Shown piece by piece: positions 22,663-35,926 of a stretch of DNA of 64,000 nucleotides. The notes beneath the pieces were generated by a model. That model was not told the DNA's origin and made no database searches. It was given only the letters and a program-made list of their open reading frames with translations. The stretch lies in contig NZ_VDFU01000003.1 in assembly GCF_006152115.1 (NCBI RefSeq), forward strand, positions 186,001 to 250,000, in the 5' to 3' direction. This stretch comes from Rubellimicrobium rubrum. Lineage in GTDB: Bacteria > Pseudomonadota > Alphaproteobacteria > Rhodobacterales > Rhodobacteraceae. Position numbers and translations under genes: made by a program. Numbering within the stretch: the first letter of the stretch is position 1; each line of letters opens with the position of its first letter.

Positions 22663-24096
22663 TCAGAACTCCTGCCATCCTCCATCGGAGGCCCCGACGG
22701 CAAGGCGTACCGGACGGGACGGAGCCCGCGGCGCAAGGTCCATTTGGGCCGTGGTAGCCGTTGGAGAGGCTGTCGCCTTGATGTCGGCCTCAGCGATCCG
22801 GAACCGTCCGACGACCTCTCCCAGATGCGCGGCATCCTGGCTTAGAGCATGGCTGGCGGTCGTTGACTCTTCCACCATGGCCGCATTCTGCTGCGTGACC
22901 TGATCAAGCTGCGTGATCGCGATGTTGATCTCGCCCAAGCCGGTCGACTGCTCACGCGCGCCGGCCGCGATCTCGCTGACGAGGGAAGATATCTCCGAGA
23001 CGCGGCCCACGATGCTGGTGAGCGCCGTGCCGGCTTGTCCGACGAGCTGGACGCCGTCTTGCACCTGCTTCGCACTCCCCTCGATCAGGGACTTGATCTG
23101 GCGAGCGGCGTCGGAGGATCGCTGCGCCAGGGAGCGCACTTCGGAGGCCACGACCGCAAAGCCGCGCCCGGCCTCGCCAGCCCTCGCGGCCTCCACCCCA
23201 GCGTTCAGGGCCAGGAGGTTGGTCTGGAAAGCGATGTCGTCGATAACGCCGATGATTTGCGAGATCTCGTCCGAGGACCGCTTGATCTCCGACATGGCGG
23301 CCACGGCGTCCCGAACCACCGAGCCGCTGCTCTCGGCTTCGGCCTTGGCCTCGCCGACGACAGCCTCGACCTCGACCGTGCGCTCGGCGGCCGAAGCCAC
23401 GCTGGCCGTAAGTTCGCCCAGCGCTGCCGCCGTTTGTTCCAGAGCGGCCGCCTGGCTTTCCGTGCGCCTGGACAAGTCGTCCGATGATTCGCTGATCTCG
23501 ATCGACCGGTCACGGATGCTGTTGGCGTTGCCCACGACCGAAGCCACGATCGAGCCCAGCGTCTCCAGAGTCCGATTGAAATCGGAGCGGAGCCCTTCGT
23601 AGGCTTGCGGGAAGGGGGCCGTGATAGGCGTGTCGAGGTCACCCTGCGCGAGTCGGGTCAGCCCTCGTCCGAGTTCCGACACGATGCGCTCTTGCTCGTC
23701 CTGCGCGGCATCACGCTCAAAGGCGGCGCGATCCGCTGACTGCAGGCTGGTGCGTAAGTCGTTCAGGGTCGCCGCGATCGCACCGAATTCGTCCGTCCGG
23801 CCCAAGCCAGAGATGGCGTGGTCAGGATCACGATGGGCGACAGCCTGCATGGACTGGCCGAGATCTTCTAGTCCGGTCGTCACGGATCGGGCCAGCAGCC
23901 ACCCGAGAAGACCGGCCACGCCCACGCTGCTCAGGATGAGAGCCACGACCGTGATGTGGAGGCCGGGGCCGCTCAGGAGCGCATCCTCCTGGCCTTGGCG
24001 GTAGAGCAGGATGCCGAAGCAACTCATCACGATGAGCATGAGGCCCATGATCGCGAGGGGGAGGCGAAGAGCGAGGGGGAGGCGGGCGCTGAGCAT
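22663..24096 (-). CDS. Methyl-accepting chemotaxis protein with WQEF tail and minimal periplasmic part
   Basis: A 477-aa receptor. TM1 is about 14-33 and TM2 47-69, leaving only some 13 residues outside, so there is no periplasmic ligand domain. Two HAMP-like segments follow (about 70-120 and 135-185), then a signalling bundle with the tip IAFQTNLLALNAGVEAARAGEAGRGFAVVA (about 288-317 in all). Gln/Glu-rich methylation helices flank it. A flexible linker (435-472) ends in GGWQEF, which resembles the C-terminal pentapeptide that tethers CheR/CheB. It is the last gene of the leftward che operon. It probably senses a membrane or cytoplasmic state, or another protein. Confidence 0.92.
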   Translation of the reverse strand: MLSARLPLALRLPLAIMGLMLIVMSCFGILLYRQGQEDALLSGPGLHITVVALILSSVGVAGLLGWLLARSVTTGLEDLGQSMQAVAHRDPDHAISGLGRTDEFGAIAATLNDLRTSLQSADRAAFERDAAQDEQERIVSELGRGLTRLAQGDLDTPITAPFPQAYEGLRSDFNRTLETLGSIVASVVGNANSIRDRSIEISESSDDLSRRTESQAAALEQTAAALGELTASVASAAERTVEVEAVVGEAKAEAESSGSVVRDAVAAMSEIKRSSDEISQIIGVIDDIAFQTNLLALNAGVEAARAGEAGRGFAVVASEVRSLAQRSSDAARQIKSLIEGSAKQVQDGVQLVGQAGTALTSIVGRVSEISSLVSEIAAGAREQSTGLGEINIAITQLDQVTQQNAAMVEESTTASHALSQDAAHLGEVVGRFRIAEADIKATASPTATTAQMDLAPRAPSRPVRLAVGASDGGWQEF

Positions 24097-24131
24097 GGGA
24101 CGTCCTGATGCAATGCGTGGGAGGCTCGGGC

Positions 24132-24494
24132 TTAGAAAAGCTCGACCGGTGGTTGAGGAGTGCAGGCTAGGCCTTGCCTGCCCAGGGCCGCGCCGAGGCT
24201 TGCGGCCACGCGTTCGAGCTTGAGGGCGTGAAAGGCGGGACCCGCGTCGATCTGGACGTCGGTCGGGACATGATCGCCCAAGCGCATCATGAACCCTTCG
24301 AGGTCATTCAGGATCTGGAGCGCCAGATCGATGCTCTGCAGATCCTGGGCCGCACCATCGGCCGCCGGACGCGACTGAAGAACCGCAGTGAGGTGGTGCT
24401 CCGCCGCGAGAATGGCTTGGCGCGGCCCGTCGATCTCGCGGGCGAGAGCAGGGAGCAGGTCGCTCAGGGCGACCGGGAGTTCCTGTTCCATCAT
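24132..24494 (-). CDS. CheT-like small chemotaxis protein with DxxxQ motif
   Basis: A 120-aa, mostly helical protein starting MMEQELPVALSDLLPALARE. It contains D56-LAL-Q60, a DxxxQ motif like that used by CheZ, CheC and CheX to dephosphorylate CheY, within helix LQSIDLALQILNDLEGFMMRLGD. The ATG overlaps the cheY stop (ATGA), and the C-terminus ends in the hydrophobic PPVELF. Position, size and motif resemble the small CheT protein described in the Sinorhizobium che1 operon, from memory. It may help to dephosphorylate CheY or act on methyltransferase activity. It lies 35 bp before the MCP gene. Function is inferred; no domain name is certain. Confidence 0.6.
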   Translation of the reverse strand: MMEQELPVALSDLLPALAREIDGPRQAILAAEHHLTAVLQSRPAADGAAQDLQSIDLALQILNDLEGFMMRLGDHVPTDVQIDAGPAFHALKLERVAASLGAALGRQGLACTPQPPVELF

Positions 24495-24877
24495 AGCCGG
24501 CCCACGACCTGTTCGATGGAGGCCTTGAGGGATGCTGTCGTGAACGGCTTCTTGACGAGGTTGTTCAGCCCCAAAGCCCGGCCGCGGTCCATGACTTCCT
24601 TGGTCGGACTTCCGGTCACCAGAATAAAGCCGACGCCTTGGGTCGTGCGGTTCGACCGCAGTGCCTCCAGAAGCTGGAGGCCGTTCATCCCCGGCATGTT
24701 GTAGTCCGCAAGGACCAGATGGACGGGGTTCGCGACGATCTTGTTGAGCGCGGCCTGTCCGGCGCTCTCGGTCTGGAACTTCCATAGTCCCATCTCCTCG
24801 AGCGCTTGCGTCAGGAGCCCGCGGCTCACCGACATGTCGTCGACGACCATTATGCGGAGCGTGTCCTTGAGTGCCAT
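24491..24877 (-). CDS. cheY: CheY-type single-domain response regulator
   Basis: A 128-aa receiver: acidic residues D13/D14 (VVDDMSVSRG), phospho-acceptor D58 (LADYNMPGMNG), switch Thr/Ser (LVTGS) and Lys110 (VKKPF). The MPGMNG variant with Asn instead of Asp is common in CheY. It is preceded by cheR (3 bp gap) and followed by the DxxxQ gene (4-bp overlap), so the regulator and its presumed phosphatase are translated together. It is one of three CheY proteins in the locus. Confidence 0.93.
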   Translation of the reverse strand: MALKDTLRIMVVDDMSVSRGLLTQALEEMGLWKFQTESAGQAALNKIVANPVHLVLADYNMPGMNGLQLLEALRSNRTTQGVGFILVTGSPTKEVMDRGRALGLNNLVKKPFTTASLKASIEQVVGRL

Positions 24878-24880
24878 GTC

Positions 24881-25768
24881 CTAGATCCTTGATGACGAGG
24901 GGCGAGGGGCCGGCCTCTTGCGGTAGGCGGTGGTCCCGGCATGGTCGAGCCGTTCGATCGCCGACCCCAGAACCCGCTCGGAATGTCCGATGAACAGCAC
25001 TCCGTCGTCGCGCAGGGCGTCGCTGAAGCGCCGCCAGAGATCCTCGCGCACGGTTTTGTCGAGGTAGATCGCGACGTTGCGACAAAAGATCACGTCGAAC
25101 GGATGCTTCATGGGCCAGGTTTTCACGAGATTCAGGCGCTTGAACGACACCAGTCCAAGGACAGCGTCCCGGATCTTCGCAGACCCGGCGTGCTTGGATT
25201 CCCCGAAGAGGGCCCTCCGGCGTTCCGGAGGCAGGAGCTCCGCTTCGGCGACCGGGTAGGTCGCGTCGCGGGCCTGATCCAGCACGCCCGGATCCACATC
25301 CGTGGCCAGGACGCGGATGTCGAACTGCGCGGCCTCGGGACAAAGCCCGACGATGCAGGCGGCGATGGAGAACGGCTCCTGGCCGGTGGAGCAACCTGCC
25401 GACCAGATGCGCACGCGGCCGCCAGCCTTTGCCTGGTCGATGAGGCCGGGCAGCACATCGCGCTCGAGCATTTCGAAGTGGTGCGCCTCGCGGAAGAAGT
25501 GCGTGACGTTGGTGGTCGTGGCCGAAATGAGATTGTCACGCTCGTCCTCGGCCCACGGAGCCTCGATCAGGTCGAGGTATGCACCCAGGCTCGACAGGCC
25601 AAGCTCACGCATGCGGGCGCCGAGGCGTTGACGGACGACAGAGGATTTGGCGGGCTGAAGGTCGATCCCCAGGGAGGATCGCACGACCCGTGCCAGACGT
25701 TCCAGATCCGCCGGGGTTGCGGTGCCTGCCTCTCGCGGGCGGGGTCGAAGATCCTGTCTGGATGTCAT
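24881..25768 (-). CDS. cheR: Chemotaxis receptor methyltransferase CheR (module 1)
   Basis: A 295-aa SAM-dependent glutamyl methyltransferase acting on MCPs. The N-terminal helical domain (to about 95) precedes TNVTHFFREAHHFEML, then the SAM-binding WSAGCSTGQEPFSIA and ATDVDPGVLDQA. FDVIFCRNVAIYLD and DDGVLFIGHSERV are typical of the family. The start (25768) is fixed by an ATGA overlap with cheW. It is followed by cheY after 3 bp. The MCP at the end of the operon carries a WQEF tail, a plausible docking site for this enzyme. Confidence 0.94.
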   Translation of the reverse strand: MTSRQDLRPRPREAGTATPADLERLARVVRSSLGIDLQPAKSSVVRQRLGARMRELGLSSLGAYLDLIEAPWAEDERDNLISATTTNVTHFFREAHHFEMLERDVLPGLIDQAKAGGRVRIWSAGCSTGQEPFSIAACIVGLCPEAAQFDIRVLATDVDPGVLDQARDATYPVAEAELLPPERRRALFGESKHAGSAKIRDAVLGLVSFKRLNLVKTWPMKHPFDVIFCRNVAIYLDKTVREDLWRRFSDALRDDGVLFIGHSERVLGSAIERLDHAGTTAYRKRPAPRPSSSRI

Positions 25769-26229
25769 GCGGCCACCTCTGCCATCGTCGGCGCGACAGC
25801 CTGCATGTTGAGGACCCGAAGCGCCTCGCCGTTCAGTGCGATCATGCCCTGGATCAAACGCATGTCGGCGCCCGACAGCGTGGGGGTGCCCTGGATCGCC
25901 GTTCGCGGGACCCTCAGGATGTCCGACACGGAGTCGACCAGAAGACCGACGGTCCGTTCTCCGGCCGAGACGATGAGGACGACATGGCGTGCCGTCAGCG
26001 CCGTCCGGTCCAGCCCCAGCCGAAGAGCCAGGTCCAGAACCGGGATGACCGCGCCACGCAGGTTCATGACCCCGAGCAGGCAGTCGGGAGCATGGGGCAA
26101 GGTCGTAACCGGAGACCACCGACGGATCTCGCGGACCTTGGTGACCTCGATGCAGTAACCCTGGCCCCCGGCCATCAGGGAGATGAACTCGGCCTGTTCC
26201 TCGGTCCGAGCGTCAGTCTGCATGTTCAT
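25765..26229 (-). CDS. cheW: CheW coupling protein (module 1)
   Basis: A 154-aa scaffold that links CheA to receptors. Typical elements are YCIEVTKVREIRRW, LLGVMNLRGAVIPVLDLALRLGL and VGLLVDSVSDILRV. The start MNMQTDARTEE lies 17 bp inside the end of cheA; a second ATG two codons later is also possible. It overlaps cheR by 4 bp. It has the usual length for a single CheW domain. Confidence 0.94.
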   Translation of the reverse strand: MNMQTDARTEEQAEFISLMAGGQGYCIEVTKVREIRRWSPVTTLPHAPDCLLGVMNLRGAVIPVLDLALRLGLDRTALTARHVVLIVSAGERTVGLLVDSVSDILRVPRTAIQGTPTLSGADMRLIQGMIALNGEALRVLNMQAVAPTMAEVAA

Positions 26230-28318
26230 GTCCGGCCTCGAAGGTCGTGATGGAATGAAGATCCCGCCGGCGTGCCGCCATTCCCACAAGGGTGTCGGGA
26301 TCGAGGATGAGTGCGACCTTGCCGTCGCCCAGGATGGTGGCCGCCGAGATGCCGGGCACGGTGCCGACATTGCCCCGCAGGCTCTTGATGACGACCTGCC
26401 GCTTGTCCGAGATGCCACTGATCGCGAGGGCTGCCCGCGTGTCCTCTCCGGTGCGGACAAGCACGACGATCGCCTGGGAGGGATCGACGACAGGGCCATA
26501 GCCCAAAACCGATGCGACATCGACGATGGGCACATGAGTCCCACGGAGATTGAGCACCCGCTCGCCTTGCCCGAGATCCAGGAAGTCCCGCGAGGATGGC
26601 CGGATCGTCTCGAGCACGGCGGCTGCCGGTACGATCATCGGCTGGTCGGCCACGGCAACGATCAAGCCGTCGAGCACAGCCAGAGTAAGGGGGAGCGAGA
26701 TGATGAAGGTAGTGCCCTCGCCCGGCCGGCTGGTGATGCTGATCCGCCCGCCAAGGGCAGTGATCGCCGTACGGGCCACATCCATGCCGACCCCGCGCCC
26801 CGAGAGGCTGGTGACCGAGGCGGCCGTCGAGAAGCCGGGGAGGAAGAGCAGGTTGTCGATCTCGCTGTCCGACAGAACGGCGTCGGCCGGAATGAGGCCC
26901 TTGCGAACCGCAGTGGCCTGGATCCTCTCGCGGTTCAGTCCTGCCCCGTCATCCTTGATGACGATTCGGACGTTCCCGGACACGTGGCTGGCGGTCAGAA
27001 GCAGGCGACCCGCGCTGGCCTTGCCCGTGGCGATGCGGTCGTCAGGCGATTCGATGCCGTGGTCGATGGCATTGCGGACCATATGGGTGAGTGGATCGGC
27101 CAGCCCCTCGACCACGGTGCGATCGACCTCCGTGTCCTCGCCTTCGGTGACCAGATCGACCTGCTTGCCGGTCGCGTCGGCCGCTTCGCGAACGACGCGG
27201 GCCATGCGCTGGAACAGTGGCTTCACCGGTTGCGCCCGGATCAGCATCACGCCTTCCTGGATGTCGCGCGCCAGAAGGCTCAGGTCCTCGACCTGCGCCG
27301 CGAGCCCGGAGGACGGCGGCAGCCCGGCTTCGGCGACCTTCTGGGCGATCACCGCTTGGTTGATGATGAGCTCGCCGACGGAGTTGATGAGGCGATCCAC
27401 CCGGTCCAGGTCGACGCGGAGCGTCGGACGGGGTGCCTCCTTGACGGTAGGAGGTGTCGGGACCGAGACCGGAGGAGTCGTCGGGGTGGGTGCTGGGGCG
27501 GCTTGCGGTTCCTCGGCCGGTACGTCTTCGGCCGCGGTGTCCGTCGCCTCCGGAAGGTCGATCAGGGGAAGGATCCCCATCGCGAACCGCGGCATTTCCT
27601 CGACTTCGAGGTCGCAGAGGTCCTCGACAAAGGCGAATACGTCCCGGACCTGGTCCTCGCCGGCTTCCGTCTCGAGGGTCAGGCTCCAGGCGAGGTAGCT
27701 TTCCTCAAGATCGATTACCTCAAGCCGCGGTAGTCCTGTGGTGTCGCAGGCGACGGTGACCTCGCCCAGGTCGGACAGAGCGGCGAACAGGTTCGCGGGT
27801 TCATGCCCGTTGTGGAAGAACTGGCGGCTCGGGCGGAAGTGCAGGCGGAACAGCTTCGGTTGCGCCGGAGCATCGTCGGCCAGGAACGACATTCCAAGAC
27901 CCATCGGCTCGAACACGAAGTCCTCTTCCGCGAGATCCTCGCCCCCGGCCAGTTCCTCCAGTGCTTCAAGAATCGCACCAAGCGCCTCGGGCGGGTCCGA
28001 ACGCCCGTCGCGTGCCGCCTCGAGCAGGTCGGCCAGGATGTCCCCGGACCGTTGGAGGAGCCGCATGACATCCGCATCCGGGACCAGCCGGTCGGATCGG
28101 ATCGCGTCGAGCACCGTTTCGAAACTGTGGGCGAACGACACGACGTCGGACAGGGCAAAGGCCCCGGCGGCACCCTTGATCGAGTGAACGGCCCGGAAGA
28201 CAGCGTGCATCGTCTCTGTCTCGGCGGTGCCGTCCGACATCGCGGCCAGCCCCTCGCCCATGGCGGCGAGAAGGTCCTCGCTTTCGGCGAAGAAAGTGTC
28301 CCTGAGTTCGTCCGTCAT
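26213..28318 (-). CDS. cheA: CheA histidine kinase with P2-like domain (module 1)
   Basis: A 701-aa central kinase. P1/Hpt is 1-105 with H45 (AVHSIKGAAGAF); a P2-like response-regulator-binding domain is 155-245 (LFRLHFRPSRQFFHNG to the VEDLCDLEVEE segment); a Pro-rich linker is 255-297; P3 dimerisation is 300-365; P4 kinase is about 365-540 (N-box HMVRNAIDHG 412-421, DDGAG 456-460, GRGVGMDV 507-514); P5 CheW-like is 545-690. It is preceded by cheY (2 bp gap) and overlaps cheW by 17 bp. Domain content differs clearly from the second CheA in the locus. Confidence 0.95.
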   Translation of the reverse strand: MTDELRDTFFAESEDLLAAMGEGLAAMSDGTAETETMHAVFRAVHSIKGAAGAFALSDVVSFAHSFETVLDAIRSDRLVPDADVMRLLQRSGDILADLLEAARDGRSDPPEALGAILEALEELAGGEDLAEEDFVFEPMGLGMSFLADDAPAQPKLFRLHFRPSRQFFHNGHEPANLFAALSDLGEVTVACDTTGLPRLEVIDLEESYLAWSLTLETEAGEDQVRDVFAFVEDLCDLEVEEMPRFAMGILPLIDLPEATDTAAEDVPAEEPQAAPAPTPTTPPVSVPTPPTVKEAPRPTLRVDLDRVDRLINSVGELIINQAVIAQKVAEAGLPPSSGLAAQVEDLSLLARDIQEGVMLIRAQPVKPLFQRMARVVREAADATGKQVDLVTEGEDTEVDRTVVEGLADPLTHMVRNAIDHGIESPDDRIATGKASAGRLLLTASHVSGNVRIVIKDDGAGLNRERIQATAVRKGLIPADAVLSDSEIDNLLFLPGFSTAASVTSLSGRGVGMDVARTAITALGGRISITSRPGEGTTFIISLPLTLAVLDGLIVAVADQPMIVPAAAVLETIRPSSRDFLDLGQGERVLNLRGTHVPIVDVASVLGYGPVVDPSQAIVVLVRTGEDTRAALAISGISDKRQVVIKSLRGNVGTVPGISAATILGDGKVALILDPDTLVGMAARRRDLHSITTFEAGHEHAD

Positions 28319-28320
28319 GC

Positions 28321-28689
28321 TCAGATCGTCCCGGTGACGCGCTTCAGGGTGGACACGAGGGCCGTCTCATCGAAGGGCTTGGTCAGCCAACCGGTCGCGC
28401 CGGCCGTCCGGGCACGGGCCCGCAGCTCGGGGCCGGTTTCCGTGGTGAGGACGAGGATCGGCACCCGCTTGTTGCGGTCGCCGGCGCGGATGGCCTCGAT
28501 GACGCCGAAGCCATCCATGTTCGGCATGTTGATGTCCGTGATGACGGCATCGAATGCCTCTCCGGCAAAGGCCGAGACGCCCAGGACGCCATCATCGGCG
28601 GTGGTCACCTGCATGCCGGCGGTTTCGAGAGCGCGACGGAGCAATTCCCTGATCGTTCGTGAATCGTCGATGGCGAGAACGGAGATCAT
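28321..28689 (-). CDS. cheY: CheY-type response regulator at head of leftward che operon
   Basis: A 122-aa receiver with D8/D9 (LAIDDSRTIRELL), phospho-acceptor D52 (VITDINMPNMDG), Thr in LVLTTET and K104 (LTKPF). The chosen ATG has AGGAGG eleven bases upstream, and that site lies inside a candidate 48-aa ORF ending 1 bp before. Continuing upstream in frame gives non-receptor-like sequence and is rejected. Together with the CheY before the DxxxQ gene, it gives two output or sink regulators for this module. Confidence 0.93.
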   Translation of the reverse strand: MISVLAIDDSRTIRELLRRALETAGMQVTTADDGVLGVSAFAGEAFDAVITDINMPNMDGFGVIEAIRAGDRNKRVPILVLTTETGPELRARARTAGATGWLTKPFDETALVSTLKRVTGTI

Positions 28690-28690
28690 G

Positions 28691-28837
28691 TCAGGCCACA
28701 GCCTCCTGGATCGTGGGGCGGGTGTCCCGACCTGCACCAAGGGCGGAGGTGCCCGGCGCACAAGGCTGGCGGCCAGCCGGCTTTCTCGGATCGGACGTGT
28801 GGGTCGCACGGCTTGGCGCGCAGAAGTCGTCAGTCAT
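28691..28837 (-). CDS. Candidate 48-aa leader ORF before cheY
   Basis: A short open frame (MTDDFCAPSRATHTSDPRK... ending PTIQEAVA) that stops 1 bp before the cheY ATG (TGA-C-ATG). GAGG lies six bases before its own start. The product is polar with two Cys and no known domain. The cheY ribosome site lies within it, so it could couple translation of the operon or be chance. I do not recognise it. Confidence 0.35.
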   Translation of the reverse strand: MTDDFCAPSRATHTSDPRKPAGRQPCAPGTSALGAGRDTRPTIQEAVA

Positions 28838-29074: not shown

Positions 29075-29443
29075 TTGAGCCGGCGCATCCTTGTCGTGGA
29101 CGACTCGCCTTCGCTGCGCCGGATGATCGCCATGACGCTCAAGGGAGCGGGCTATGACGTGGTTGAAGCAGAGGATGGCCTCGATGCCCTGGAGCGGGTC
29201 GCGGCGGCGCGCTTCGATGCGGTGCTGACGGACCAGAACATGCCGCGCATGGATGGCCTGTCCTTTATCCGCGAGTTCAAGTCGCGGCCCGAGGGGCAGG
29301 GCATCCCGGTGGTATTCCTGTCCACCGAGAGCGAGGGCGAGCTCAAGGACAAGGCACGCGCCGCCGGTGCGTTGGGCTGGATGACCAAGCCGTTCGATCA
29401 GGCCAAGCTCCTGTCGGTCATGGCCCGGGTGGTAGGCGCATGA
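29075..29443 (+). CDS. cheY: CheY-type response regulator at head of rightward che operon
   Basis: A 122-aa receiver with D9/D10 (VVDDSPSLRRMIA), phospho-acceptor D53 (VLTDQNMPRMDG), switch residue in FLSTES and K105 (MTKPF). It appears to start at TTG (29075), with AGGAG eight bases upstream; no ATG precedes the receiver in frame. It overlaps cheA by 4 bp. The product is similar to, but clearly distinct from, the CheY at the head of the other operon. Confidence 0.93.
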   Translation: MSRRILVVDDSPSLRRMIAMTLKGAGYDVVEAEDGLDALERVAAARFDAVLTDQNMPRMDGLSFIREFKSRPEGQGIPVVFLSTESEGELKDKARAAGALGWMTKPFDQAKLLSVMARVVGA

Positions 29444-31071
29444 TCGACGCCGAAACCCTGGCCATCTTCCGCACCGAAGCGGACGGATTGGTGGAAAGCC
29501 TCGAGGCGGGCCTGCTGACCCTTCAGGAGCGCCCCGGCGACCGTTCTGTCATCGATCAGGTCTTCCGCGACCTGCACACGCTGAAGGGCACGGGAGGCAT
29601 GTTCGGGCAGACCGAACTCGCGGCTTTCGTGCATGGCTTCGAATCGGCCTTCGAGGCGATCCGCTCTGGAACCAGCGTGGCGAGCCCCGCCCTGATCGCC
29701 GTCTGCCTGAAGGCCCATGACCATATCATGTCCCTTCTGGCCGGAGAGCGGCCGGGTGGCGCCGGGACGATCCTTGCCGATCTTGCGACGGCCGTGTCGG
29801 GCTCGGCTCCAGCGGATGAGCAGATCCTTCCAGAAGTGCCCACCGAGGCGTCCGCCTCCGCTTCCCAGGAATCGGGGGCCAAGACGATCCCCATGATGCG
29901 CATCTCGGCCGAGCGCCTCGACGAGATGATGGATCGCGTGGGCGAACTCGTCATTGCCGAGGCCCGCCTGGCCGAGATCGCCGCCAGGAGCGGCGTTCCG
30001 GCCCTGGTCTCCGTGACCGAGGATATACAGCGTCTAGCATCGAGCATGCGCGACGCGACGATGTCGATCCGCATGACGCCGATCTCGTCCATCACTGGCC
30101 GCTTCCGCCGTCTCGTTCACGATCTCGCACGCCAGTTGGACAAGCCGATCGATCTCGTGATCGAGGGGGAAGAGACGGAGCTGGACAAGGCCGTCGTCGA
30201 GCAGCTCGCCGAGCCGCTGATGCACCTCATCCGGAACGCCGCCGATCATGGGATCGAGGACGCCGCGACACGCTCGCGACTCGGCAAGTCCCCGTCCGGT
30301 CAGATCAGGCTTTCGGCCCGACAGTCCGGGGGCGAAGTCGAAGTCGAACTCGCAGACGACGGCCGCGGTCTGGACGAGGCCCGCATCCGGGCCAAGGCGA
30401 TCGATCTCGGGCTTCTCGGGCTGGATGCCGATGTCGGATCGGCCGATCTCCAGCGCCTGATCCTTTCTCCGGGCTTCTCGACGGCCCAGCAGGTCACCGA
30501 GCTGTCCGGGCGGGGGGTCGGCATGGACGTCGTCCGCCGCACCGTCTCCGAACTCCGCGGCAGCGTCGACATCGCGTCCTCGTCGGGGAGCGGAACCCGC
30601 GTGGTCATACGGCTCCCGCTGACCCTTGCCATCATCAGCGGGCTGCTGGTCGAGGTGGCCGGGGAACGGTTCACGATCCCGCTCTCGACCGTGGAGGAGA
30701 TCGTCGAGCTTCCCGAAAGATCGGGACCGGCAGACGCCTCGTCGCGGTTCTTGGACATCCGGGGACGGCTTGTCCCCACCATGTCGCTTCGCGAGGTATT
30801 TGCCAGCCCGCCCGCCCCCGAGATGTTCCCCAAGGTCGTGATCGTGGGAGCCAGCGGAGCCCGTGTCGGCTTGGTCGTGGATCGCATCATCGGATCCAAC
30901 CAGACGGTCATCAAGCAGCTCTCGCCGCTTCATGCGGGGGTCAGCACATTCTCGGGCGCCACCATCCTCGGGGATGGCGCCGTGGCGCTGATCCTGGATG
31001 TGGCGACCCTGGTCAATCAATCGAAACGCCCGGCTCCGATCGAGCGGCATCTTCAAGAGGTTCTCGCATGA
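29440..31071 (+). CDS. cheA: CheA histidine kinase lacking P2 (module 2)
   Basis: A 543-aa kinase. P1/Hpt is 1-105 with H46 (DLHTLKGTGGMF); residues 106-150 are a short low-complexity linker in place of a P2 domain; P3 is 153-215; P4 holds the N-box HLIRNAADHG (262-271), DDGRG (306-310) and GRGVGMDV (357-364); P5 is about 395-530. Without P2, CheY and CheB must be phosphorylated directly from P1. It overlaps both neighbours (cheY, cheW) by ATGA, so the operon is tightly coupled. Confidence 0.95.
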   Translation: MIDAETLAIFRTEADGLVESLEAGLLTLQERPGDRSVIDQVFRDLHTLKGTGGMFGQTELAAFVHGFESAFEAIRSGTSVASPALIAVCLKAHDHIMSLLAGERPGGAGTILADLATAVSGSAPADEQILPEVPTEASASASQESGAKTIPMMRISAERLDEMMDRVGELVIAEARLAEIAARSGVPALVSVTEDIQRLASSMRDATMSIRMTPISSITGRFRRLVHDLARQLDKPIDLVIEGEETELDKAVVEQLAEPLMHLIRNAADHGIEDAATRSRLGKSPSGQIRLSARQSGGEVEVELADDGRGLDEARIRAKAIDLGLLGLDADVGSADLQRLILSPGFSTAQQVTELSGRGVGMDVVRRTVSELRGSVDIASSSGSGTRVVIRLPLTLAIISGLLVEVAGERFTIPLSTVEEIVELPERSGPADASSRFLDIRGRLVPTMSLREVFASPPAPEMFPKVVIVGASGARVGLVVDRIIGSNQTVIKQLSPLHAGVSTFSGATILGDGAVALILDVATLVNQSKRPAPIERHLQEVLA

Positions 31072-31592
31072 CGCTGATGTCCCGCCCCGCCAGTCGATCC
31101 CTGGGCAACATCGACGTGGTCACCCTGCGGCTGGGCCAGGATACCCTGGCCATCCGGGCCGAGATGCTGCGCGAGGTGCTGGAGCCTGTCAGCATCACTC
31201 GCGTGCCCGGTGCGCCCGAGTTCTGCTGCGGGCTCGTCAACGTACGAGGGACCGTGGTTCCCTTGTCCGACCTGCGGGTGACCTTCGGAATGCCCCGGAC
31301 GCCGCTTGGACCCGACAGCCGGATCCTTGTGCTCGATCTGCCCCTGTCCGGGCGTGCTTCTGTCGTGGGCATCGTAGCGGATGCCGTCCACGAGGTGACC
31401 CGAGTCGAAAGCCACATGCTCCAGACTGTTCCTGCCGTGGGCACCCGGTGGCCTCCGCAGTTCATCGAGGCGATCGCCCGGATCGGAGGAAACTTCGTGA
31501 TGCTGCCCGACATCCCCGCCATCTTCGCGGCGTTCCTCGGCGGCCAATCGGCCACGACGGTCGGCCCGCAGGGGCAGGGCGCTGCAGCGTGA
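31068..31592 (+). CDS. cheW: CheW coupling protein (module 2, first copy)
   Basis: A 174-aa CheW with IDVVTLRLGQDTLAIRAEML near the N-terminus, REVLEPVSITRVPGAPEFCCG, LVNVRGTVVPLSDLRVTFG and VGIVADAVHEVTRVES. It begins inside the cheA stop (ATGA). It is the first of two unequal CheW copies in this operon, the second following after a 129-bp gap that holds a hairpin. Such pairs may separate receptor coupling from array building. Confidence 0.92.
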   Translation: MTLMSRPASRSLGNIDVVTLRLGQDTLAIRAEMLREVLEPVSITRVPGAPEFCCGLVNVRGTVVPLSDLRVTFGMPRTPLGPDSRILVLDLPLSGRASVVGIVADAVHEVTRVESHMLQTVPAVGTRWPPQFIEAIARIGGNFVMLPDIPAIFAAFLGGQSATTVGPQGQGAAA

Positions 31593-31640
31593 CCGGCGTC
31601 GCCCTCCTCTGAGCCAAGGTCTGCCTCCACCCTGGCTGCT

Positions 31641-31657
31641 CCGGATCGCCGATCCGG
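31641..31657 (+). repeat. Inverted repeat in cheW-cheW gap
   Basis: CCGGATC-GCC-GATCCGG is a perfect 7-bp stem with a 3-base loop in the 129-bp gap between the two module-2 cheW genes. All other genes of this operon overlap, so the gap is out of place. The hairpin could stabilise or attenuate mRNA. No T run follows. Confidence 0.4.
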
Positions 31658-31721
31658 CGGCAGCTGTCTTGAACCGATCCTGCGCAGTGGCCGCGCGGTC
31701 CCCGACTGAGGAAGATGCCTC

Positions 31722-32246
31722 ATGCTGAATCAACCAGTAGTTACCTTCGGACTGGAAAGCTCTCTGTTCGGCCTTCCCGTCGCGCTCGTCCAGGAGATCC
31801 TCGATCCCCGTCCGGTGTCGCGCCTCCCCCACGCGCCGTCGCACCTCATGGGCGTGACGGACGTCAGGGGCAGCTCGGTCGCCGTCATCGACCTTCGCAC
31901 CTACTTGGGCGAGCCGATGAGGCCCGATGCGGCGGACACGCGCATCATGGTTCTCAAGCTCGACAGGGATGGGGCCGCGCTTCTCGTGGCCCTCAGGGTC
32001 GACCGGGTGATCGAGGTGACGAGCCTGGACGACGACCGCCTCGAGCCGCTGGCCGAAGCTGCTCTCCTGAACTGGGACCAGCGGATGGTCGAAGGCATCG
32101 GCCGTCGGAACGGGACATTCGTCACCGTCCTGCGCTTGGCCGGCCTGTTCGACCGAGACGTCATGGACGCGATGGCGACGGGTCGGCCAAGGCAGGCGGC
32201 CAGTCAGGACGCGGAGGCGGCCTTTGCCGGGCTGGCCAGCGCATGA
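31722..32246 (+). CDS. cheW: CheW coupling protein (module 2, second copy)
   Basis: A 174-aa CheW: VTFGLESSLFGLPVALVQEILDPRPVSRLPHAP, LMGVTDVRGSSVAVIDLRTYLG and ALRVDRVIEVTSLDD. It ends DAEAAFAGLASA. It has an ATG with GAGGAAG nearby, and overlaps cheR by 4 bp. The sequence differs substantially from the first copy, so it is not a recent duplicate. Confidence 0.92.
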   Translation: MLNQPVVTFGLESSLFGLPVALVQEILDPRPVSRLPHAPSHLMGVTDVRGSSVAVIDLRTYLGEPMRPDAADTRIMVLKLDRDGAALLVALRVDRVIEVTSLDDDRLEPLAEAALLNWDQRMVEGIGRRNGTFVTVLRLAGLFDRDVMDAMATGRPRQAASQDAEAAFAGLASA

Positions 32247-33154
32247 GCACCCAGATCCTCCGCTCGCGGTACCCTGCGCGGTTCCGTCAGATCGTCCATG
32301 AGGCCACAGGCATCCATCTTCCTGAAAGCAAGGATGGCATGGTGGAGTCCCGGCTGCGCCCGCGGCTGGTGGCCCTGGGGCTTACCGATGCCGGTGAATA
32401 TTTCCGCTACCTGTTCGAGGAGAATGGTCTCGAAACAGAACTGGCAAGCCTCATCGAACTCGTCACCACGAACAAGACCGACTTCTTTCGGGAGGTCCAG
32501 CATTACAACCTGCTTCAGGACATGATGATCCCTGCTGCCCTCAGGACCGGACGGGCGGGCGGGCGGGTCAGCTTCAAGTTCTGGAGCGCGGCCGCGTCGA
32601 CCGGGGCCGAAGCCTGGTCGGCGGCGATGGTTCTGGCGGAAGCCCAGGCCCGTGCGCCCGAGTTGGACTGGGCCGTGCTGGGCACCGACATCTCGCGCCG
32701 CGTGCTGAAGACGGCCGTCCGCGCCATCTATCCCGAAGCCGAGCTCATCCCGGTGCCTCCCATGCTGCGGGACCGGTACGCGATGGTTGGGCGCGACAAG
32801 GATGGTTTGCCTTTGCGCCGCATCGTGCCGGAATTGCGCCAGCGCGTCCGCTTCGAGGAGATGAACCTCATGGACAGGACCTATCCGGTGGATCGCAACC
32901 TGGATGCGATCTTTCTGCGCAACGTGCTGATCTACTTCGATCCTCCGACCCAGGCTCGCGTGATCGCCACGATCGCATCGCATCTCCGTCCCGGTGGGCA
33001 TCTCGTGGTCGGACATGCGGAGTCGATGATCGTGCGCCAGTCCGGCCTGAAACAGGTCGCCCCGGCCGTGTTCGAGCGGCAAGGCAAACTCGAGACGGAC
33101 GCCATGGCTGGCCATTTGACCCAGCCATCCATGCATATGGGAGCCATGCCATGA
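32243..33154 (+). CDS. cheR: Chemotaxis receptor methyltransferase CheR (module 2)
   Basis: A 303-aa methyltransferase. The N-terminal RFRQIVHEATGIHLPESKDG and VTTNKTDFFREVQHYNLL precede the SAM-binding WSAAASTGAEAWSAAMVLAE and LGTDISRRVLKTA; LDAIFLRNVLIYFD and GGHLVVGHAESM follow. It overlaps cheW (4 bp) and cheB (4 bp). The C-terminus (HLTQPSMHMGAMP) is Met-rich and unusual. Target receptors may be encoded elsewhere, since the only MCP here is in the other operon. Confidence 0.93.
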   Translation: MSTQILRSRYPARFRQIVHEATGIHLPESKDGMVESRLRPRLVALGLTDAGEYFRYLFEENGLETELASLIELVTTNKTDFFREVQHYNLLQDMMIPAALRTGRAGGRVSFKFWSAAASTGAEAWSAAMVLAEAQARAPELDWAVLGTDISRRVLKTAVRAIYPEAELIPVPPMLRDRYAMVGRDKDGLPLRRIVPELRQRVRFEEMNLMDRTYPVDRNLDAIFLRNVLIYFDPPTQARVIATIASHLRPGGHLVVGHAESMIVRQSGLKQVAPAVFERQGKLETDAMAGHLTQPSMHMGAMP

Positions 33155-34251
33155 CCGCCGGCCCGATCAAGGTCATGATCGTCGATGACAGCGCCAGCAT
33201 CAGGGCGGGGCTCAAGGCCCTGCTGTCCACGGACCCGGAGATCGAGGTCATCGCCTCCGCCGCCGACCCGTTCGAGGCCGCCGAGCGGCTCCGCTCGATG
33301 GTGCCCGATGTCATGCTTCTCGATATCGAGATGCCAAGAATGGATGGCCTGACGTTCCTGAGCAAGATCATGGCTCAGCGGCCCTTGCCGGTCGTCATCT
33401 GCTCCAGCCATACCGAGGCCGGGTCCAAGACGGCGATGCGCGCCCTGGAGTTGGGGGCCGCCGAGGTGATCGGGAAGCCGAACCTGGGCAGCCCACGCGA
33501 GCGCCAGGAAGCGCAGATGCGCGTGTGCGATGCCGTGCACGCGGCTGTCCAGACCAGGCCCGGCGCGCGTGGGTCGACGCCCCGCCCGATGCAACCGGGG
33601 CCGAAGCATACAGCCGACGTCATCCTGCCGCCTGCGCGCGCGCATGCCGCCAAGCCGCCGCAGACCGCGCCCCTGGTGGCGATCGGCGCTTCGACTGGCG
33701 GCACCGAAGCTCTTGCGTCCATCTTGCGTGAACTGCCGCCGAACGCCCCGCCGGTCGTGATCGTGCAGCACATGCCCGAGCGCTTCACCGCCGCGTTCGC
33801 CCAACGTCTCGACGGATTGTGCCGGGTGCGGGTGGCCGAGGCCGTGACCGGCGACCAACTCACGAGCGGACTGGTGCTTATCGCTCCGGGCGACCATCAC
33901 CTGCTGCTAAGGCGTCAAGGCGTCAACTACAGGGTCGAGGTGGTCGAAGGCCCGTATGTCGCGCGGCACCGTCCCTCGGTGGATGTGCTGTTCCGCTCGG
34001 TCGCGCAGGCAGCGGGGCCCAACGCCCTGGGGATCCTGCTGACCGGCATGGGAGACGACGGCGCGCGCGGTCTCCTGGAGATGAAGCAGGCGGGTTCGGG
34101 CACCATCGCCCAGGACGAGGCCACATCCGTGGTCTTCGGCATGCCGCGCGAGGCGTTGCGGATGGGAGCCACCGAACGGGCACTGCCACTGGGCCGAATG
34201 GCCAACGAGATCGTGACCTGGGGGAGGAAACATGTTGGATCGGTCCAGTGA
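33151..34251 (+). CDS. cheB: Chemotaxis receptor methylesterase/deamidase CheB
   Basis: A 366-aa two-domain enzyme. The receiver holds phospho-acceptor D58 (LLDIEMPRMDG); a Pro/Arg-rich linker (about 135-170) joins the esterase with triad S181 (IGASTGG), H207 (VQHMPERF) and D303 (LLTGMGDDGARG). This is the only CheB for two CheR enzymes in the window, so it may serve both modules. It overlaps cheR by 4 bp and the next gene by 20 bp. No CheD is present. Confidence 0.95.
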   Translation: MTAGPIKVMIVDDSASIRAGLKALLSTDPEIEVIASAADPFEAAERLRSMVPDVMLLDIEMPRMDGLTFLSKIMAQRPLPVVICSSHTEAGSKTAMRALELGAAEVIGKPNLGSPRERQEAQMRVCDAVHAAVQTRPGARGSTPRPMQPGPKHTADVILPPARAHAAKPPQTAPLVAIGASTGGTEALASILRELPPNAPPVVIVQHMPERFTAAFAQRLDGLCRVRVAEAVTGDQLTSGLVLIAPGDHHLLLRRQGVNYRVEVVEGPYVARHRPSVDVLFRSVAQAAGPNALGILLTGMGDDGARGLLEMKQAGSGTIAQDEATSVVFGMPREALRMGATERALPLGRMANEIVTWGRKHVGSVQ

Positions 34252-35926
34252 TATCGACCCTGCTCGGCAGGAAGCCTCTGAGGTCACGGCCCTGGACTGG
34301 TCGCCCCTGACCCGGGTCGCCGTCGTGAGGAGCCGCACCGAAGCCGTTTTCGGGGCGTCGCTCGATGCCATGCTGGGGGCAGTGGACGACCTTAGCCTGA
34401 CGGAGTCGTCGCTCGCCGCTCTGGCGGACGCGCTGTCGCCCGCAACGATGGTTCGCCTCAAGTCGCTTCAGCCCCGGTTCCAGGATCTCAGCCGGCAGGT
34501 CGAGGCCAAGGCTGATCGGTGCCGCGTGGCGGCCGGTGCCTTGGGCGGCCTCATGAGGGACGCCCGCAGCCGGCTCGAGGAACTTCGTCGCCTCGCCCGC
34601 ACGGCGACCCTGGTGTCGCTCAACGCCTTGGTCGTCAGCCGCACGCTGAACTCGGACGGCGGCACCATCGACGGCTTGGCCCGGGACATGAGGGCGGTGC
34701 TGGGCGAGGTGGGTGGCCTGGTTGCCGATCTTGCCGTTCGCATCTCGGCCGGACAGTCCGAGCTCAACGGGGTGGCCGAGCAGACGGCCAAACTGCAGAC
34801 GCTCGCGCACAAGGACGTCCTTCCTGCGATCCGGACGCTGTCCGAACTGATTCAAGCCAAGTCCCGCGACGACCGGATCGCCCGCTCGGCCGGGTTGGTG
34901 TCCAAGCGGTTCCGCGCGCTTCAGGATCGCGTCAGCCAGGTCATCCTGCACCTTCAGGTGGGGGACGGCTTCCGCCAAAGGCTCGAACACATCGAGGCTA
35001 TCCTGGCGATGGCCCAGGATCCCGACAACGCGTCGATTCGAACGATGCTGCACCGGCTCGGGGCCGCACAGCTTCGCGGCGCGCTCATCGACCTCAGATC
35101 CTCTCTTCAGGTCGCAGGGCGCCACATCCGCGCGATGAGCCGGATGGGGGCCGAGATCCCGCGCGCGGGGGCGATCAGCGCGATCAGGGGTGGACAAGAT
35201 GGGCTGGGTGTCCTGCTGTCCGCAGCCTCGGGCATGGAGACCGTGATCGAACGGCTGTCCGACAGGAGCGGTCGCCTCACCGTCACGTCGCGCGGGTTGG
35301 CGGCCACGCTGGCCGGCGCCGGGCAGAACGCCGATCAGGCTGCCGAGTTCGAGCGGCGAATGACTGTCCTGGGTCTCAATGCCATCCTCCTGGCCTCGCG
35401 CCTGGGATCCGAAGGCCGCGCGATGGAGGAAGTGGCGCAGCAGCAGCGCGACATCGCTCGCAGCATCATCGAGGTCATGGGCCTGCTCCGCAAGGAGTTG
35501 GAAGCCGTGGTCGTGACCTCGGGTGCACTCGACGCTCCGGAAGACGAGACCTTGACGGGGACGCTGCATGCCGCGGCCGAAGCGGCCCTGGAGATCTCCA
35601 TCCTGTCGGGCCGGGTGCGCGGGCACCTCGCGGCCATGGACAGCGTCCGCGGGTCGGACGAGATCGCCGTCGTCGTGGAGCGTGCGGGACGCGAACTCGA
35701 TCACTTCATGGACATGGCCAAGGGACTGGACGAGGTTGCGCGCGTCCTTGATCAGGGACATGTCGCGGCAGAGGCGCCCCCGGGTCACAGCGAGACGTTC
35801 GCTCGTGTCCGGACGCTCTACTCCATGCAATCCGAGCGCGACATCCATGACCGGATGTTCCCCCGGGATGCTGCGGCGGAAATCGCAGCCGAGCCCGAGG
35901 AGGAGGACGACTTCCTCTTCGCCTGA
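34232..35926 (+). CDS. Unusual soluble MCP-like protein with CheZ-like DxxxQ segment
   Basis: A 564-aa, all-helical protein without membrane segment, final gene of the rightward che operon (20-bp overlap with cheB). Two stretches look like degenerate MCP tips: 122-168 (TATLVSLNALVVSRTLNSDG...) and 376-418 (MTVLGLNAILLASRLGSEGR...), each sharing the LNA core and the following amphipathic helix with the true MCP. Between them, HLQVGDGFRQRLEHIEAIL (240-258) contains D245-GFR-Q249, a DxxxQ motif in a setting like CheZ. The C-terminus is acidic and hydrophobic (EPEEEDDFLFA), reminiscent of a CheZ CheY-binding tail. Canonical tip residues for CheA/CheW contact are largely lost. I do not know a named family. 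It could be an array scaffold, a CheY phosphatase, or both; this is inference. Confidence 0.6.
   Translation: MLDRSSDIDPARQEASEVTALDWSPLTRVAVVRSRTEAVFGASLDAMLGAVDDLSLTESSLAALADALSPATMVRLKSLQPRFQDLSRQVEAKADRCRVAAGALGGLMRDARSRLEELRRLARTATLVSLNALVVSRTLNSDGGTIDGLARDMRAVLGEVGGLVADLAVRISAGQSELNGVAEQTAKLQTLAHKDVLPAIRTLSELIQAKSRDDRIARSAGLVSKRFRALQDRVSQVILHLQVGDGFRQRLEHIEAILAMAQDPDNASIRTMLHRLGAAQLRGALIDLRSSLQVAGRHIRAMSRMGAEIPRAGAISAIRGGQDGLGVLLSAASGMETVIERLSDRSGRLTVTSRGLAATLAGAGQNADQAAEFERRMTVLGLNAILLASRLGSEGRAMEEVAQQQRDIARSIIEVMGLLRKELEAVVVTSGALDAPEDETLTGTLHAAAEAALEISILSGRVRGHLAAMDSVRGSDEIAVVVERAGRELDHFMDMAKGLDEVARVLDQGHVAAEAPPGHSETFARVRTLYSMQSERDIHDRMFPRDAAAEIAAEPEEEDDFLFA

Follow-up and report, generated by a model that had tools for sequence, protein, structure and literature searches.

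The 3′-most gene of a chemotaxis operon of Rubellimicrobium rubrum encodes a protein that, by sequence comparison, belongs to the TlpC family known from Rhodobacter sphaeroides. The window analysed here is a stretch of 64,000 nucleotides (contig NZ_VDFU01000003.1, positions 186,001 to 250,000), and all coordinates given without further label refer to it. Family membership, an internal duplication, the operon position, an invariant QxxDxxxQR motif, an invariant asparagine in the second of two receptor-like tips and an acidic-hydrophobic C-terminal tail were established for this protein. On such sequence features, we regard it as about evenly balanced between true and false that TlpC-family proteins are phosphatases of phosphorylated CheY (CheY-P), borne by the chemoreceptor array and built on a duplicated receptor hairpin.

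The open reading frame (ORF) extends from 34232 to 35926 on the forward strand, encodes 564 amino acids and has an ATG start with GGAGG just upstream. The start is located within cheB, with an overlap of 20 bases, at the end of a tightly packed cheY-cheA-cheW-cheW-cheR-cheB operon. A hydropathy scan revealed no stretch resembling a membrane helix (maximal mean over 19 residues of 1.39). Sequence searches against Pfam, NCBIfam and PDB gave no usable match, the best being DUF948 (E-value (E) of 0.086) and phasin_2 (E 0.049), both under the cut-off. As no Pfam domain exceeded the cut-off, the protein has no recognised sensor domain.

Over its full length, the window protein is about 22% identical to the TlpC copy of genome G082, with the QxxDxxxQR, N and Y/E/R residues in common. 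The reaction-centre L subunit of G082 is 100% identical to what we take to be the R. sphaeroides sequence, and in this genome the order cheY-cheA-cheW-cheW-cheR-cheB is followed by a family member of exactly 580 amino acids; because of this gene order, this length and the reaction-centre identity, the 580-residue copy was taken as TlpC. A copy from Cereibacter johrii is 94% identical to it. The published gene order of CheOp2 ends in tlpC (PMC7277832) and the length of TlpC is 580 amino acids (PMC3964821); these papers, like all those cited below, are drawn on for the excerpts available. G082 holds a second member of 595 amino acids, flanked by two ORFs resembling methyl-accepting chemotaxis proteins (MCPs) in a cheOp1-like cluster. 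This member is likely TlpS, a name inferred from its position, since tlpS has been reported at cheOp1. An earlier reading of the window from its letters alone (the original prediction) had assigned the protein to no described family, which was wrong, since it is a relative of TlpC. The family is already known, but it has been read as a receptor, and as far as our searches go the phosphatase reading is new within the literature searched. That literature was covered by title, beginning of the abstract and term counts, with subscription journals mostly outside its range, and no link of TlpC to DXXXQ or CheZ-type activity was present among the matches listed.

The phosphatase reading centres on D245-GFR-Q249, which lies in HLQVGDGFRQRLEH exactly as originally described. 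The encompassing QxxDxxxQR motif (residues 242-250; 34955..34981, forward strand), the proposed response-regulator phosphatase site, falls in the descending arm of the first half of the protein, and its DxxxQ lies on a helix comprising residues 243-260 in the AlphaFold2 model. In the 580-residue TlpC chain the pair is numbered D237 and Q241. In the single sequence the pair of D245 and Q249 is no evidence beyond chance, since DxxxQ occurs four times (residues 9, 85, 232 and 245) against a mean of 1.6 in shuffled copies. It becomes significant because it is invariant in 39 of 39 family sequences with a median pairwise identity of 17%, whereas the copies at residues 9, 85 and 232 are not. The alignment contained 38 complete ORFs from neighbourhood loci and the window protein; two of the 40 full-length hits, those in G087 and G187, are not part of it, nor is the broken G006 gene. 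Only eight residues are invariant in it, namely Q242, D245, Q249, R250, N383, Y530, E535 and R536. Moreover, the motif was present in all 51 ORFs from named genomes, a count that is partly biased by one of the two search patterns, which held LQ.GD..R (without the glutamine), and in six of six plasmid-borne members examined, taken from 14 records that had been found without using the motif. In distant family members the motif region is MQFSDRLAQRLDH or LQFADAFVQRVQN, which resembles the CSFQDITGQRITKV of alphaproteobacterial CheZ. As conserved as the DxxxQ pair is a YxMxxERxxH stretch before the tail (residues 530-539; 35819..35848, forward strand), in which Y530, E535 and R536 were found in 39 of 39 sequences and H539 in 38; we know of no function for it.

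For comparison with CheZ, a profile was built from 31 ORFs of 187-396 amino acids, which were taken from loci found with PF04344 and picked by their catalytic motif. In an anchored test, the catalytic aspartate of CheZ was set at each position of the family profile, using four test windows with 534-548 positions. D245 was the best position in all four. After removal of the D and Q columns it ranked 11 of 546, 2 of 540, 2 of 548 and 1 of 534, and with alignment A4 the corresponding ranks were 71, 11, 2 and 5. The N-terminal half (N-half) aligned with the full CheZ profile at 40.7% with the catalytic helices in register, a score reached by none of 150 block shuffles.

The CheZ-like DDFLFA C-terminus noticed in the window protein turned out to be a feature of the family. 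The tail EEEDDFLFA (residues 556-564; 35897..35923, forward strand), a proposed CheY-binding peptide, is of an acidic-hydrophobic kind shared by 36 of the 39 members according to a crude rule. The rule picked out 12 of the 103 neighbouring MCPs and 3 of 53 further window ORFs, and it recognises no more than 17 of 31 genuine CheZ tails.

In agreement with the original prediction, a single soluble chain contains two MCP-like hairpin regions that are related to each other. The N-half aligned in register with the C-terminal half (C-half) over 179 columns (HHalign 96.7%, E 3e-10), with N131 on N383 and the DxxxQ helix facing residues near 490-503. The first tip aligned with the second (HHalign 96.1%), and the C-half aligned with the MCP signalling-domain profile (HHalign 96.2%). 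Taken together, these three likenesses identify the chain as an MCP hairpin in tandem, a single polypeptide that may mimic a dimer of receptors. Both tips had been matched by eye to the MCP tip. This was upheld, through the C-half, for the second (residues 376-418; 35357..35485, forward strand), whereas the first and more degenerate one (residues 122-168 with a turn at about 138-142; 34595..34735, forward strand) hardly matches MCPs directly and is tied only to the second tip; of the best alternative alignments of the N-half with MCPs, one reached 20.5% away from the tip and the other 8.6% with the tips aligned. Similarly, the canonical contact residues had been described as missing. The GFAVVA stretch is indeed lost in the family, as seen from column tallies at 122-145 and 376-401, but the MCP asparagine of the second tip (N383) occurs in every one of the 39 sequences, G392 in 26 and G395 in 24 of them. 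PF00015 was matched by 22 of 52 members at E≤0.01, the best at 1.9e-10, and the window protein itself was without a match.

AlphaFold2 models of the window protein (predicted local distance difference test (pLDDT) 88.3, predicted template modelling score (pTM) 0.68) and of C. johrii TlpC (pLDDT 88.5, pTM 0.70) consist of helices throughout, and the turn of the first tip is plainly visible in them. At the other expected hairpin tip the window model has one non-helical residue and the C. johrii model has none, so that the turn at this tip is not confirmed by the structure models. Foldseek searches of PDB with both models returned long helical proteins, including MCPs, with weak E-values.

In the proposed mechanism, the hairpin tips would place the TlpC-family protein in the array of receptors, CheW and CheA, and the tail would capture phospho-CheY, as CheZ does with its C-terminal helix. 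Separated by a single helical turn and facing the same side, D245 and Q249 would enter the active site of CheY. In CheZ the glutamine positions the attacking water, and Q249 could do likewise. The predicted outcome is dephosphorylation of CheY at the array, by which the signal would be ended in bacteria mostly without CheZ. A wider proposal, to which we lean slightly less than to its negation, is that TlpC and its relatives form an unrecognised class of signal terminators, in which the hairpin was duplicated, the second copy kept the array tip and the first gained a CheZ-type DxxxQ, resulting in an array-anchored CheY phosphatase. If true, a receptor scaffold would have been reused as an enzyme, and a missing phosphatase would be supplied for che systems in Rhodobacterales and likewise for che operons of Bradyrhizobium, Rhodopseudomonas, Azospirillum, Methylosinus, Shinella and others. 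The invariant phosphatase-type pair also joins two questions, the role of TlpC and the ending of signals from regulators other than CheY6 in R. sphaeroides. This bacterium is back to prestimulus behaviour in less than 1 s after brief stimuli and has no CheZ homologue; in 2010 a phosphatase was known for CheY6 only, namely CheA3, and the ending of signals from the other regulators was stated as open (PMC2924250). No later settlement was found among the matches listed in the literature searched.

Several observations weigh against an array-borne CheY-P phosphatase. PF04344 (CheZ) was matched by 0 of 52 family members at E≤0.01, and, as regards the putative CheZ-like fold, CheZ was not among the 50 Foldseek matches listed for either structure model. 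Homology to CheZ was considered and rejected as proven: reversed profiles reach 32.6% and 30.6%, and the CheZ profile alignment breaks when the D and Q columns are masked and is not seen with alignment A4. Therefore, only motif likeness to CheZ is claimed. In addition, the two-hybrid table published for TlpC covers CheA3, CheA4, CheW4, TlpC and TlpT, without CheY (PMC6829392).

Further points concern other phosphatases. The absence of CheZ from all 39 family-bearing genomes examined within the window's taxonomic family speaks for the phosphatase reading but is confounded by shared ancestry. In a class sample of 58 genomes, 23 had CheZ and three had a full-length member of the TlpC family, and two of these three also hold CheZ with several matches each; owing to this co-occurrence, the absence of CheZ is not used as strong evidence. 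The window's own genome holds a CheC/CheX-type ORF (contig C33, L205 4215-5033, reverse strand; PF13690 7e-14, PF04509 4e-12) with ELANLG and EIGN stretches, and a close relative holds a CheC-type ORF; CheC matches at E≤0.001 occurred in only two of 39 genomes (G000 and G002). The TlpC-family protein of the window gave no PF04509 or PF13690 match at E≤1, and neither was among the 20 families found for the 52 TlpC-family members. The second che system of the window ends in an ORF of 120 amino acids (24132-24494, reverse strand) that also has a DxxxQ; it holds DLALQ, ends in PPVELF, had no Pfam match over the cut-off and is possibly a CheT-like phosphatase. Finally, a 2025 review lists R. sphaeroides among species said to have CheD, CheS and CheT, but not among its CheT homologues in the excerpt available (PMC12654446). 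Given the CheZ co-occurrence, the CheC-type ORF, the 120-residue ORF with DxxxQ and the CheT report, the TlpC-family protein need not be the only phosphatase of the cell. In sum, the observation underlying the original prediction was confirmed as real, and its interpretation was partly supported.

The explanation that competes best with an array-borne phosphatase is a non-catalytic receptor or scaffold of the array, in which QxxDxxxQR would be a structural site or a docking site for CheA/CheW, CheB or the protein itself; we consider it possible, if rather unlikely. TlpC was reportedly presented as a novel chemotaxis protein by the title of a 2002 paper, known to us from reference lists, and is said to be essential for chemotaxis. 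A role as an array component is consistent with the MCP-type hairpins, with the occurrence of invariant residues also in the second tip and in YxMxxERxxH, and with the two-hybrid contacts of TlpC, which are CheA3, CheW4 and TlpC itself, as well as the diffuse cytoplasmic cluster resulting from tlpC deletion (PMC6829392). TlpC is located in this cluster and is described as being without a glycine turn and without obvious adaptation sites (PMC6829392). Its role is still tentative, as the 2019 paper pairs it with CheA3 (PMC6829392) and a 2024 review suggests that it controls CheA4 instead (PMC10924463). Set against a non-catalytic receptor or scaffold are the lack of a recognised sensor domain in the window protein and the combination of a CheZ-like motif register with a CheZ-like tail, which a structural part does not predict.

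Less probable still, and unlikely in our estimate, is a binder or regulator of CheY-P without catalysis of its own, the tail of which would dock CheY-P as a sink or hand it to another phosphatase, for example the phosphatase domain of CheA3. Such a binder would fit the near-universal tail of the family and the interaction of TlpC with CheA3, the carrier of the CheY6 phosphatase, and the CheC-like ORF of the window's genome could then be the enzyme, but the strict invariance of D245 and Q249 would be left unexplained. It is very improbable that DxxxQ merely survives from the conserved DxVTQQ in the methylation helix of MCPs and has no phosphatase meaning. The derivation of the family from MCP hairpins and the same loose pattern in neighbouring MCPs (IQQLDKVTQQ, with a glutamine at -3, as in the family) would fit such a relic. 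However, D245 ranked poorly when anchored on DxVTQQ (66, 84 and 103 among some 520-550 positions, and between 47 and 147 when alignment A4 was used), which argues against a simple MCP relic, and the spacing from asparagine to aspartate is 93 columns in neighbouring MCPs versus 114 residues in the window protein.

The distribution of the family was analysed in several genome sets. Among 394 genomes of its taxonomic family, the window protein alone had matches in 26 at E≤0.001, some of which were weak. With a profile of 27 sequences, at least 40 near-full-length matches (E<1e-20) were obtained in at least 37 of the 394 genomes, these counts being lower bounds because at most three candidates were scored per genome. 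Below the full-length matches, partial C-half matches of about 60 bits probably represent ordinary MCPs. A scan of named genomes yielded 53 loci with 51 ORFs scoring as family members (L135 and L140 gave no whole ORF), the range including Cereibacter, Rhodobacter, Gemmobacter, Paracoccus and Marivivens as well as Bradyrhizobium, Rhodopseudomonas, Alsobacter, Acidocella and Paracraurococcus. Using a Rhodospirillaceae member as query, the 14 plasmid records mentioned above were found, of which six were examined; they extend the range to Azospirillum, Rhizobium, Shinella, Agrobacterium, Methylosinus and Novosphingobium. Where annotations of plasmid members were present, they read 'hypothetical protein', 'chemotaxis protein' or 'type VII secretion target'. 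Plasmid protein searches with the window protein or the C. johrii copy gave no matches, and a plasmid DNA search gave no match across the 564-residue gene.

A che gene (>60 bits) was present at the locus in 39 of the 40 ORF rows from neighbourhood loci (two of these rows belong to a single broken gene), in 50 of the 51 from named genomes and in all 9 from a third set, which includes the window's own locus. Both family loci without such a che gene lie at contig ends. In the neighbourhood, named-genome and third sets, cheB directly adjoined on the same strand in 22, 43 and 6 cases, and a divergent cheY was located within 1.2 kb in 14, 1 and 1, respectively. In a genome of the same genus, the family gene is split by in-frame stops into two ORF pieces (L103 9472-11094, reverse strand). 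On plasmid p1 of Agrobacterium leguminum (L199 8944-11450), the family gene, annotated as 'chemotaxis protein', adjoins a ParA-family gene alongside a che operon, and this neighbour recalls PpfA, which in R. sphaeroides is the ParA-like partner of the cytoplasmic cluster.

The operon of the window begins with cheY (29075..29443, forward strand), the candidate substrate, which by eye is a single receiver domain and matches CheY ORFs equally placed in related operons. It is followed by cheA (29440..31071), cheW (31068..31592), a second cheW (31722..32246), cheR (32243..33154) and cheB (33151..34251), all on the forward strand and assigned by Pfam. The two cheW genes are only 129 bases apart (31593-31721), where many related operons hold an MCP-like ORF; the R. 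sphaeroides operon (L065) is likewise without an MCP-like ORF between its cheW genes. The second che system (22663-28809, reverse strand) is divergent from the first. On the reverse strand it comprises a response regulator (28321) and cheA (26213), then cheW- and cheR-like ORFs recognised by eye, a further response regulator with its end near 24491, and an MCP that has a HAMP domain and an intact tip (22663-24096).

Compared with known systems, the C-half of the window protein is related to the MCP signalling domain (PF00015), whereas the protein differs from MCPs in having no recognised sensor domain, membrane helix or GFAVVA and in carrying two hairpins in one chain. With CheZ (PF04344) the family shares a helix with DxxxQ and similar downstream residues (family consensus DSTRQRLEHV versus DITGQRITKV in CheZ) and a similar acidic-hydrophobic C-terminus; in contrast, the 31 CheZ ORFs used comprise 187-396 amino acids, and the window protein 564 with MCP-derived hairpins. 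To TlpC of CheOp2 in R. sphaeroides, the window gene corresponds in family and in its place at the 3′ end of the operon; TlpC has been described as a chemoreceptor or chemoreceptor-like, and a phosphatase-type motif is absent from the excerpts of published descriptions examined. CheT of Sinorhizobium meliloti is small in size. According to the published description its AlphaFold model resembles CheZ, and the excerpt makes no mention of MCP tips (PMC12654446). CheT is an alphaproteobacterial DXXXQ phosphatase that speeds the dephosphorylation of one CheY; having no significant homology to chemotaxis proteins already known, it provides a precedent outside the standard set (PMC12654446).

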